The notes under the pieces: generated by a model
What the model was told of the DNA's origin: nothing
What the model saw: the letters and a program-made list of their open reading frames with translations, nothing else
The model's database searches: none
In this document: piece after piece, positions 114-32,282 of the stretch
Layout: each line of letters opens with the position of its first letter
How positions within the stretch are numbered: position 1 is the stretch's first letter
Position numbers and translations under genes: made by a program
Virus record (IMG/VR): IMGVR_UViG_3300045996_001074
Location: 1-32,624 of that record
Strand: one strand, 5' to 3'
Source of the DNA: a virus
DNA length: 32,624 nt

Positions 114-155
114 CAATAACAGGGGCATCGTCCCAGTAATGAGACGATGCCCCTG
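114..155 (-). terminator. Intrinsic terminator of the leftward late operon
   Basis: Bases 120-132 and 143-155 form a perfect 13-bp GC-rich stem with a 10-base loop. On the minus strand the stem is followed by TTATTGTTT. It lies 30 bases after the stop of the last tail gene (186-1070), exactly where the leftward structural operon should end. Confidence 0.85.
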
Positions 156-23567: not shown

Positions 23568-23879
23568 TTATTTTTGTTCTGCTTCGATGTTGATGTGGAT
23601 ATATTCGCCCTCCTCGCGATGTCCCAAATCAAACACAACTGCATTGCCCTGACACATCTCGCTACCTGCACCGCGCATTACAGCGGCTTCAGCTAATGGG
23701 TCGCTGCGCCACAACCTAACCTGACTCCACCTGTCCAAAAAATCCTGCTCATTGGCAAGCCAGATATCAGAACCTGCGAGACCAAACAGCATCCCGGCTT
23801 TGTAACACGCAGTTGGTGGTGTGTAACCGCGTTTAATGAGAAATCGTGCGTAACTACTTGCGAGTCTTTTTAGCATCAT
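23568..23879 (-). CDS. Small accessory head-region protein, unknown
   Basis: This 103-residue protein starts MMLKRLASSYARFLIKRGYT and ends in a short acidic strand (GEYIHINIEAEQK). It contains aromatic-rich segments (LANEQDFLDRWSQVRLWRSD). AAAGGAG lies one base before the first ATG and four before the second, so the second (23876) may be the real start. The gene overlaps the end of the HExxH gene by 26 bases. Not recognised. It could be an accessory or immunity-type protein for the MuF locus, or a partner of the metalloprotein. Confidence 0.55.
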   Translation of the reverse strand: MMLKRLASSYARFLIKRGYTPPTACYKAGMLFGLAGSDIWLANEQDFLDRWSQVRLWRSDPLAEAAVMRGAGSEMCQGNAVVFDLGHREEGEYIHINIEAEQK

Positions 23880-24336
23880 GCTCCTTTAAGTGTCTGTGAA
23901 GGCAAAACGCCATATCTTGCACAAACGACTCGTTTCTAACCTTCAGCTCTGCTATTGCGTGCTCGCGAAACTTGGGCGCATCGCTCTCCGGCAAAAGGCG
24001 TTCTATTGTGTCGTAAACGTAATCGTATAGAGGGCCACTGAATGCGTGTATCAGTTCGTGAGTCACTTGTTCGCGCCTCAGGTCGGCATCGCCATAAAGC
24101 CACTCGCTGTAAAACCTGAGAGATATTCGCCGGTATTCGTATTCAGTGCATTCGTCTATGCACGCGGTATTCTCCCCGCCTTCGCTGCACCACTCTACAT
24201 GCACCTTTTGGCACCATCCAGGAACAAGCCATGCCAGCGGCTCAAGGTGATCCTTGATTGCGCCCAGCGTTTCGACGGGTATGCTTTTGTCGTAGATAAA
24301 GTTCAATGTCTCACCTATAAATTCTGTTGCGCCCAA
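23854..24336 (-). CDS. HExxH metalloprotease-like protein
   Basis: This 160-residue protein contains REQVTHELIHAFSGPLYDYV (about 88-107), with the zinc-binding HExxH at H93-E94-H97, followed by a helical stretch IERLLPESDAPKFREHAIAE. This zincin-type signature, with few other features, occurs in small phage hypothetical proteins. No ATG exists; the frame opens at TTG (24336) without a clear ribosome-binding site. An alternative TTG at codon 11 has GGTGAG three bases upstream. It lies between the MuF gene and the scaffold, where many phages encode the prohead protease, and no serine prohead protease is seen nearby. Capsid maturation is one possibility; toxin processing or a host target are others. 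Confidence 0.6.
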   Translation of the reverse strand: MGATEFIGETLNFIYDKSIPVETLGAIKDHLEPLAWLVPGWCQKVHVEWCSEGGENTACIDECTEYEYRRISLRFYSEWLYGDADLRREQVTHELIHAFSGPLYDYVYDTIERLLPESDAPKFREHAIAELKVRNESFVQDMAFCLHRHLKEHDAKKTRK

Positions 24337-24649: not shown

Positions 24650-25999
24650 TTACCCGTTTTCGCTAATTCGCACGATGAGTGCGCTGCGATTCAATACGAC
24701 ATAATAAATGTCCTTCGCATCTTCCAAGACCACGAAGTAAGCATCGTATCCCTTAGCAGCAGCGTAGTAACCAGGATTAGACCCGGTCGGTATGGTCGGG
24801 TCATACCCATCCCGGCGCATCTGCTCTACTAAATCATCAAAATCAATTATTCTTGCCTCAGGGCGGAATGCCGCATTGATCTCAACTCCTTTGTTCGCTC
24901 CCTGACGCCTATTACCTGCATAAAAATAGGTGCCTGATCCGTAACGATTCTGCGGGCCGTGATAGAGTGGCCCTGACCTGAACTGTTCGGCGAACTCCAA
25001 GAGCGTCTCTTTGGGGGTGGCCTCGTCGTTAACCGCCGTGATGTTCCTGTTGGCCTGAAACGCCCCTGCTACCCCGAAGCGATGAATGTCTTCGACTGAC
25101 ATGGCCTCCTCTGGCAGCCCCGCCGCCTTTCGCCTCGCCTCAACCACACTGACTACATCCTGTTCAGTCCCAAGTGCGGGTAACGCATCGAAGCCTTGAG
25201 CAATCCTAATCTCTCGCAATACAATATCTTCTTTTGTCTGCGGGTCCATTGCGACCGATCTGCCAAAAACAGTAGACGTCCCTTCCGCGCCAACTAACGC
25301 ACCAGTTGCTGTTATCTCTGCTACGACCTCTCTGACATCGCGCGAGAACTTAGCAGGCCTATATGCCCTCGCTTCTGCGGAGTTACGATACTTCCACTTG
25401 CAATGACACCTCCATCGGCAGGTTCGGATTCCTCGCTGCGGCAGGGTGCCAATCTTCCGCCAGCCGCGCCTCGTCACTGTTTTGCACGACGGCAGCGCAC
25501 CGTCCTCACAATGGTTCGCACCGTCATCGAGCACGTTCAAGTACTCGTCCATGCCGCGCTTCTGCATTTCCAGATTTTCGACATGGAAGAATGTATTGGC
25601 GGCTGCGGCAAAGTAAGCCCGAAACGACTGCCGAACATAGCCATCGACGGGCGAACCATTAGCGATAGATTTCATCCGGTCGCGCCAGAATCCTAGCTCT
25701 GGCCTGACCAGCGCCCCTACCCGCCCATAGTCCGCCTGACTCATCTGAGCGCGTCCGCCCTTCGCCGCCATAGCTGAAGCCAAGTGCGCCCTCGCAATGG
25801 CCCGTTCTCCCAGCAACTGCACCTCCTTTACATTCACCGCACCGTCGCGCAACAGATTAAACAGCGTATCGGCCACATCGTCTTGCTGTGCCTTCAGAAA
25901 GCCATCCATTGCATCGACAACAGCATCAGCGGACACGAAGCGCCCATTGCGTCGGTAGCGGCTCTGCGTGGCGTCCCAGGTGAAGTTAGGTCGGTTCAT
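24650..25999 (-). CDS. MuF-like minor head protein with ART-like C-terminus
   Basis: This 449-residue protein follows the portal. Residues about 30-210 are the MuF-type part: helical, then VLDDGANHCEDGALPSCKTV and RTCRWRCHCKWKYR, a Cys/His cluster (C164, C172, C194, C198, C200) typical of SPP1 gp7/Mu F family ends. Residues about 340-449 are separate: GPLYHGPQNRYGSGTYFYAG (H347, Y358), then VEINAAFRPEARIIDFDDLV, GYDAYFVVLEDAKDIYYVVL and NRSALIVR. The YHG and G-x-G-x-YF arrangement resembles the H-Y type of ADP-ribosyltransferase fold; MuF proteins fused to polymorphic toxin domains are known in temperate phages. A catalytic Glu/Gln is not assigned. The ATG lies within the end of the upstream 73-residue gene (14-base overlap). 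Confidence 0.7.
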   Translation of the reverse strand: MNRPNFTWDATQSRYRRNGRFVSADAVVDAMDGFLKAQQDDVADTLFNLLRDGAVNVKEVQLLGERAIARAHLASAMAAKGGRAQMSQADYGRVGALVRPELGFWRDRMKSIANGSPVDGYVRQSFRAYFAAAANTFFHVENLEMQKRGMDEYLNVLDDGANHCEDGALPSCKTVTRRGWRKIGTLPQRGIRTCRWRCHCKWKYRNSAEARAYRPAKFSRDVREVVAEITATGALVGAEGTSTVFGRSVAMDPQTKEDIVLREIRIAQGFDALPALGTEQDVVSVVEARRKAAGLPEEAMSVEDIHRFGVAGAFQANRNITAVNDEATPKETLLEFAEQFRSGPLYHGPQNRYGSGTYFYAGNRRQGANKGVEINAAFRPEARIIDFDDLVEQMRRDGYDPTIPTGSNPGYYAAAKGYDAYFVVLEDAKDIYYVVLNRSALIVRISENG

Positions 26000-31187: not shown

Positions 31188-31607
31188 TCATGCTCTCCGC
31201 TCCATATCGTTCGTTATCGCCCCCCGATGCTTGCGCAAATGGGCATGAATGAATACCTGGGCCGCACATGCGACAAAGGCCATGCCGTAGACAAAGCCCT
31301 GAGAATTGTTCTGCCAGACAATCCACATCACCCCGGCCCAGTTGGCAGCGGCACAGGCGGCCACACTGCGACGGGCGAAGTAGTTGCGACTTATGAACGC
31401 GGCCAATTGGAATGCCCCGGTCAGGATGAATAGCAACATGCAAGCGACGGGTGGCGCTTCAGCCCATTCGCTCGCTGTCGGCATCAGGTAAGACCATGAC
31501 CCTGATACGATGGCCATGAAAGCCAGTACAATCTCCGCCCACGCCGGGGACGCGGTTTTGAGTTCGTTCCATGCGTCAATCAGGTTTGAGCGGAAATGTT
31601 TGGGCAT
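31188..31607 (-). CDS. Holin-like protein with four membrane spans
   Basis: This 139-residue protein has hydrophobic spans at about 23-42, 53-72, 82-98 and 104-122, with a charged C-terminus (LRKHRGAITNDMERRA). It sits between the endolysin and the spanin-like gene, the classic place of a holin that opens the inner membrane on schedule. Four spans are more than usual for the smallest holins, so it may be an antiholin or another membrane protein. The start ATG follows AGAGAA about twelve bases upstream, a weak site. The 132-base gap before it contains the plus-strand small RNA. Confidence 0.55.
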   Translation of the reverse strand: MPKHFRSNLIDAWNELKTASPAWAEIVLAFMAIVSGSWSYLMPTASEWAEAPPVACMLLFILTGAFQLAAFISRNYFARRSVAACAAANWAGVMWIVWQNNSQGFVYGMAFVACAAQVFIHAHLRKHRGAITNDMERRA

Positions 31608-31646
31608 AAGATTATTAAGTTCTCTTTATAATTAATGGCTCGCCAG

Positions 31647-31655
31647 TGCTATAAT
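31647..31655 (+). promoter_or_regulatory. Extended -10 promoter (TGCTATAAT) of the small RNA
   Basis: TATAAT at 31650-31655 is preceded by TG at 31647-31648. The ten-base element GTGCTATAAT matches, with one base changed, the promoters of the peptide and lipoprotein genes at 2725-2734 and 2878-2887. No good -35 is visible. Expected start is near 31662. Confidence 0.65.
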
Positions 31656-31661
31656 CTCATG

Positions 31662-31738
31662 CACCGCTGGCCTGCTTTCTCAGGTCTAGCGTAGTCCCCG
31701 GCATTGGTATCAGGCCGGTGTCGGGGGCGTTTCCTTTT
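31662..31738 (+). ncRNA. Predicted two-hairpin small RNA
   Basis: About 77 nt follow the extended -10. The first hairpin pairs 31665-31674 with 31681-31691 (10 bp, one bulge, 6-base loop). The second pairs 31696-31707 with 31715-31726 (12 bp, 7-base loop) and is followed by GCGTTTCCTTTT, an intrinsic terminator. One G·U pair in the first and three in the second would be C·A mismatches on the minus strand, so the structure favours plus-strand RNA. A tiny frame from ATG 31659 (MHRWPAFSGLA) begins before the expected start. It lies opposite the late operon between the endolysin and the holin-like gene. Function unknown; a regulator of lysis, packaging mRNA or host genes is possible. Confidence 0.55.
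31696..31738 (+). terminator. Intrinsic terminator of the small RNA
   Basis: The 12-bp stem CCCCGGCATTGG / CCGGTGTCGGGG with loop TATCAGG is followed by a T-rich run on the plus strand. Three wobble pairs (31701-31721, 31704-31718, 31705-31717) are only stable in plus-strand RNA. On the minus strand no T tract follows the stem, so it should not stop the late operon. Confidence 0.7.
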
Positions 31739-31739
31739 A

Positions 31740-32282
31740 CTAAATCAACTTGGCCTTAATCCATTCCTGCAACTTCTCTTTGCTCACTTCGAAATGCATG
31801 GAATCCTTCCTTGAGAATTCCATGCCCGAGTACCACCCTGCATTATGCAGATATGGATAGAGCCTCAATACTCCAACGTGCACTAATGGCCTGCCGAGCG
31901 GCACCACGCCCGAGCCAAAATATAAATCAATGGCCGCGCCCCATGAGTGAATCGAATACGAGCGAGTAGAGCCGCGTATCAGGCGGCAACACAGCATCCC
32001 GGCACAGCGAATCTCTCGGTAAAGCGTTTTGTCTTTTTGCTCAATCTTGGCAAAGATTTCTTTGAGCGAAGCGACGGCGGGCTTTAAGCCGGTGACGTTG
32101 AATGGCCCGACATCAGCAGTCACGAGCGCCTTTTTGAGCTTGGCATTGGTCGGTTGGCTGCAATCGGTTTTCTTCGGGCCAGGTATGCCAAAGTGAGCCA
32201 TCAGGATAGTTCCCGTTGGACTCAGGCCGCTGTTGATGCTCGCGGGTGGCGGTATGGCGGTGGTGTCGGAGAATTTGCTCAT
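31740..32282 (-). CDS. M15 family peptidoglycan peptidase (endolysin)
   Basis: This 180-residue protein has the M15 zinc peptidase signature: SIHSWGAAIDL with H112 and D119, and SMHFEV with H163, completing the His-Asp-His zinc site; D160 may be the catalytic acid. The region from about residue 44 leads into the fold (KLKKALVTADVGPFNVTGLK, then LKEIFAKI), and a GW-Y-S turn precedes the last motif. M15 phage enzymes cut D-Ala-D-Ala or L-Ala-D-Glu links of the cell wall. No signal peptide is seen, so it needs a holin to reach the wall. It overlaps the preceding holin candidate (ATGA) and has GGGAG four bases before the ATG. Confidence 0.88.
   Translation of the reverse strand: MSKFSDTTAIPPPASINSGLSPTGTILMAHFGIPGPKKTDCSQPTNAKLKKALVTADVGPFNVTGLKPAVASLKEIFAKIEQKDKTLYREIRCAGMLCCRLIRGSTRSYSIHSWGAAIDLYFGSGVVPLGRPLVHVGVLRLYPYLHNAGWYSGMEFSRKDSMHFEVSKEKLQEWIKAKLI

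Follow-up and report, generated by a model that had tools for sequence, protein, structure and literature searches.

To our knowledge, control of phage lysis timing by antisense or small RNAs has rarely been proposed; PAK_P4as15 is one example. This RNA of the Pseudomonas phage PAK_P4 is antisense at the endolysin gene, and it was proposed to delay lysis (PMC12197685). The P22 sar RNA is an intergenic RNA of 68/69 nt, which has its own promoter and lies opposite an operon (PMC12197685, PMC13397905). Lambda OOP is a phage antisense RNA of 77 nt that works by an RNase III route, and aQ is a further phage antisense precedent (PMC12197685). In E. coli prophages, the genes of the Pas sRNAs adjoin the holin/lysozyme operon (PMC13192938). 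The sRNA svsR acts on host genes (PMC12803456), and anti-sRNAs such as AgvB have been summarised (PMC12197685). Here we describe an element in the late operon of an uncultivated phage (IMG/VR record IMGVR_UViG_3300045996_001074; the whole stretch analysed, 32,624 nt, is called the window here). Judged from its sequence and that of one homologue, the element is very probably a real, previously undescribed phage small-RNA gene. The predicted RNA is a new and rare two-member family within a known kind, the phage-encoded small antisense RNAs.

The element is placed in the intergenic gap of 132 bp that separates two minus-strand genes:

31740–32282, minus strand: endolysin-like M15 peptidase gene (Pfam PF13539, E=1e-6; PHROG endolysin, E=4e-4), which precedes the element in the late operon.
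31188–31607, minus strand: gene of a 139-aa protein with three to four predicted membrane segments (hydropathy only), a possible holin, downstream of the element.

The minus-strand late operon begins with a 113-aa protein (one predicted membrane segment), followed by the M15 endolysin, the gap, the 139-aa protein and a 154-aa protein. Further along are small proteins, a putative terminase small subunit (DUF5681), the terminase large subunit and a likely portal, which was assigned by position alone. The 139-aa protein gave no family match in Pfam or PHROG, and the searches for its relatives were empty. A preliminary description, made from the letters of this DNA, had set the element inside a lysis cassette. 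This is reasonable in view of the neighbouring M15 peptidase/endolysin and of the small proteins beside it that have predicted membrane segments; a family match backs the endolysin alone, and the other small proteins are placed there by those segments. At the far end, after the last late gene, a 14-bp terminator-like hairpin is found at window positions 122–153 on the minus strand (−26.3 kcal/mol, 3′ end near 121). It is likely the end of the late operon.

The element itself can be divided as follows:

31647–31655, plus strand: extended −10 promoter element TGCTATAAT, with an exact TGNTATAAT; it lies in a stretch identical in the homologue (27/27).
31661–31738, plus strand: predicted small RNA of approximately 78 nt, from folds and z-scores of both strands and from the homologue.
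31665–31691, plus strand: hairpin 1, 10 bp with a bulged U and the 6-nt loop CUUUCU (fold).
31694–31728, plus strand: hairpin 2, 15 bp with the loop AUCAG, a terminator-like stem (fold, and compensatory pairs in the homologue).
31729–31738, plus strand: U-rich tail GUUUCCUUUU, which stops just short of the endolysin stop codon (31740–31742).

The exact TGNTATAAT occurs once in the window, where 0.49 occurrences are expected, and no −35 is recognisable upstream of TGCTATAAT. A second TATAAT at 31627–31632 was set aside, as it is not conserved in the homologue. The start of the RNA was set by its distance from the −10 (31661–31663 is likely) and the end by the U-run (approximately 31738). The two hairpins are separated by a linker of 2 nt. 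Hairpin 2 (−26.4 kcal/mol over 31694–31728) is the strongest plus-strand hairpin followed by a T-run that was found in the window. When the interval 31640–31745 was folded as the plus strand, the energy was −46.2 kcal/mol (z −5.35), and none of 200 shuffles was as good; the minus strand folded at −29.6 kcal/mol (z −1.34). The minimum-energy fold contains six G-U pairs, of which hairpin 2 has five and hairpin 1 has one. All are wobbles of the plus strand, and neither helix contains an A-C pair on that strand. The extended −10 and the two-hairpin plus-strand element of the preliminary description were thus recovered at the same place, together with the 10-bp bulged first hairpin and the restriction of the wobbles to the plus strand. 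Its 12 bp for the second hairpin became 15 pairs, and its four wobbles became six. A search for tRNA/tmRNA returned none. No conserved short peptide is encoded; the sole in-frame ORF has 11 aa and is frameshifted in the homologue.

We searched for homologues with a pattern built from the promoter and the 5′ end of the RNA. The pattern scans gave a single true homologue, the locus L038 on IMGVR_UViG_3300045996_001835 (whole contig, G009). By BLASTN, window positions 31602–31730 match L038 positions 1661–1532 with 79.4 % DNA identity over 131 bp (E 9e-25). This conserved module of 131 bp spans from the end of the endolysin to the start codon of the next gene, and it includes one further part:

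31602–31646, no strand assigned: conserved leader, from the sRNA promoter to the start codon of the 139-aa gene.

Identity peaks at the promoter and the RNA 5′ end, where 27/27 nt are the same from CCAG onwards, and is 44/52 in the stems. The leader (31/44), the two loops (3/6 and 1/5) and the tail (4/12) are less conserved. Almost no unpaired sequence is shared beyond the 5′ GCAC and the UA linker. In L038, hairpin 1 has 11 bp and is unbulged. The strand bias runs the same way (z −5.16 in the plus-strand sense and −0.44 in the opposite sense), as does the wobble polarity. The tail of L038 is GUCCUGGUUA; it lacks the U-run, unlike the terminator of the window copy, and the 3′ end of the L038 RNA is therefore uncertain.

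The L038 element is also antisense. On one side of it is the gene of a probable endolysin (weak PHROG match, E 0.049) and on the other a gene whose product has a single predicted membrane segment; terminase is downstream of the element. None of the flanking proteins is convincingly similar between the two loci (best E 0.003, over 39 residues). Between the whole contigs, the common genes are limited to the gene at 24650–25999, its neighbour at 23854–24336 and two tail-fibre-like genes. The longest protein match has 45 % amino acid identity, and the longest DNA match has 66.6 % over 610 bp. Because these whole-contig matches are weaker, the element is the best-conserved DNA longer than 100 bp between the two phages. 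The L038 phage carries ParB and ParA genes (G009:529–2242; L184:529–2242), so it is probably a phage-plasmid and temperate. Its locus also encodes a response-regulator receiver domain that stands alone, immediately upstream of terminase, and, beside the probable endolysin, a Mom-like DNA modification protein (L038:2156–2530 and 655–1104).

The preliminary description had named compensatory changes in homologues as a test of the RNA. Between the window and L038, no stem pair is broken; both partners have changed in two pairs and one partner in two more, and one pair is bulged. The two double changes are in hairpin 2 (C-G to U-A and G-C to A-U). In alignment A4, 51/51 cells pair, as against 37–47 % in slid controls. 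A shuffle control on this alignment gave 131/500, a comparison that has little power with two sequences. Under a model of random transitions, the probability of no broken pair is approximately 0.08, and that of no broken pair together with at least two double changes is approximately 0.004. The covariation is limited because the family has two members only.

Since the stem pairs are kept with compensatory changes and the strand bias recurs in L038, a plus-strand RNA from the element is very likely on the sequence data. The wobble polarity of the homologue and the promoter also support the earlier proposal that this transcript would oppose the late operon. The late mRNA necessarily crosses the region, and the hairpins could in principle be chance, or a structure of the minus-strand late mRNA, for example for its processing, with no RNA gene at all. 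This is highly improbable: the minus-strand folds are ordinary in both phages, all wobbles are polarised towards the plus strand, and conservation is highest at the promoter.

Either the family is rare, or it has been poorly sampled. None of the 4227 models of Rfam release 15 reached the gathering threshold, in agreement with the earlier statement that no known RNA family is recognised; the best match by E-value, CRISPR-DR52 (E=4.5), was taken as chance. When phage and plasmid records were searched with the element by BLASTN, nothing was returned at the thresholds used, and weak T4-like matches to the L038 copy (E ~1) were also taken as chance. Model R1 found the element absent from the terminase relatives (G001, L004) and the endolysin relatives (L003, L011–L036), and it gave no convincing match in the phage loci examined. 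The same holds for approximately 1,150 bacterial genomes (a class and an order chosen around an Azonexus genome, plus the class around one of Sphingomonas), where the weak matches were inspected and judged to be chance. With a looser pattern on viral and bacterial genome contigs, no homologue beyond L038 was found among the 45 best-folding matches listed; prophages in bacterial genomes may still carry copies.

Two other loci can be recorded here. L012:6298–6390, which follows a holin-like gene, resembles the element at its start (GCTATAAT, ATGCA) and folds into strong hairpins (z −4.92). It was the third-best match of model R1 (13.3 bits, E=2) and has the same orientation as the lysis genes of L012; it was rejected as a member and is a possible analogue. 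Another viral contig, L054:271–292 (minus strand), has TTGACA-17-TGCTATAAT, then GCACCGC and a strong hairpin near the contig end.

We tentatively favour, at a little under an even chance, an antisense RNA encoded in cis, of the same type as P22 sar and lambda OOP, that would act on the late lysis mRNA through RNase III cleavage or processing. The host sigma-70 polymerase would read the small RNA from the putative extended −10, against the late operon, in lysogens or early in infection. Between the endolysin and membrane-protein genes, the full length of the RNA would be paired with the late mRNA. This mRNA would then be cleaved or processed by RNase III, with convergent transcription perhaps adding to the effect. 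A threshold would thereby be set, and expression of the downstream lysis and packaging genes would be delayed or trimmed. The RNase III or processing route is proposed because the RNA leaves the downstream ribosome-binding site uncovered, with its 5′ end approximately 54 nt upstream of the ATG of the 139-aa gene. This gene has no good Shine-Dalgarno sequence close to its ATG (window 31608–31625, minus strand). The motif GAGAAC, approximately 18 nt upstream of the ATG of the downstream gene, is conserved in the window phage and L038.

Action in cis is favoured by the antisense position, which is alike in both phages despite unrelated flanking proteins, and by the extension of the module to the start of the next gene. 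The drift of the loops with retention of the stems is tolerable for a cis-antisense RNA, whose target co-varies with it. The small number of members, the uncovered ribosome-binding site and the loss of the U-tail in L038 count against it. Orientation alone is no proof of action in cis, because any oppositely placed gene is antisense.

Morons usually have their own promoter and terminator and an opposite orientation within the late operon, and the autonomous layout of the element fits this arrangement. As an RNA moron, it would be an independent small RNA between late genes, acting in trans, either on mRNAs of the host or other mRNAs of the phage or on a protein (bound, for example, by Hfq or ProQ), to the benefit of lysogens or infected cells. 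The probably temperate L038 phage with ParA/ParB agrees with this, as do the precedents of Pas, svsR and AgvB (AgvB reportedly acts on host genes) and the tail genes, hence perhaps hosts, common to the window and G009. However, the loops are not conserved, little unpaired conserved sequence is left as a seed for pairing in trans, and complementarity to the rest of either phage's own genome was no better than to shuffles, with no target above them. We consider a trans-acting moron possible, if less probable than action in cis.

The HK022 put RNA has two hairpins that make the polymerase read through terminators and on into same-strand genes downstream. Two hairpins 2 nt apart directly after a strong promoter recall this RNA. 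In L038, which is without the U-run, hairpin 2 may not be a terminator, and the structure is more conserved than the loop sequence. An element of this sort, with put-like action on RNA polymerase, or a promoter-terminator pair that insulates or causes collisions, is nevertheless unlikely. In L038 the genes that follow are on the opposite strand, and read-through would yield only the antisense of the endolysin and earlier genes; a good terminator ends the window copy, and Rfam returned no match.

The promoter, the two-hairpin RNA and the region where the next gene starts may together be a new, horizontally exchanged phage RNA family. In phages that are otherwise largely unrelated, the 131-bp module would then serve as a timer of lysis, or set a threshold for it, through its RNA; we offer this with reserve. 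The module is fixed in place while both flanking genes have been replaced, which makes control of lysis by RNA directly testable. The polarity of wobble pairs can reveal non-coding genes of uncultivated phages.

Compared with the known systems, the element shares with sar and OOP a position opposite an mRNA of its own phage with full complementarity, in both phages by location, with transcription predicted. An own promoter and a discrete structured transcript are likewise present at the sequence level. By description, the target of sar is ant in the immunity region, where the RNA interferes with the initiation of translation, whereas the element lies in the lysis/packaging operon and stops short of the downstream ribosome-binding site. 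OOP targets cII in the early region; the element is in the lysis/packaging operon and has no Rfam match. PAK_P4as15 is approximately 550 nt long and lies at the endolysin gene itself, whereas the element is approximately 78 nt long and lies in the gap after the gene. Pas, svsR and AgvB are, by description, autonomous sRNA genes in phage genomes like the element, but they belong to E. coli prophages, and those with a known action work in trans.
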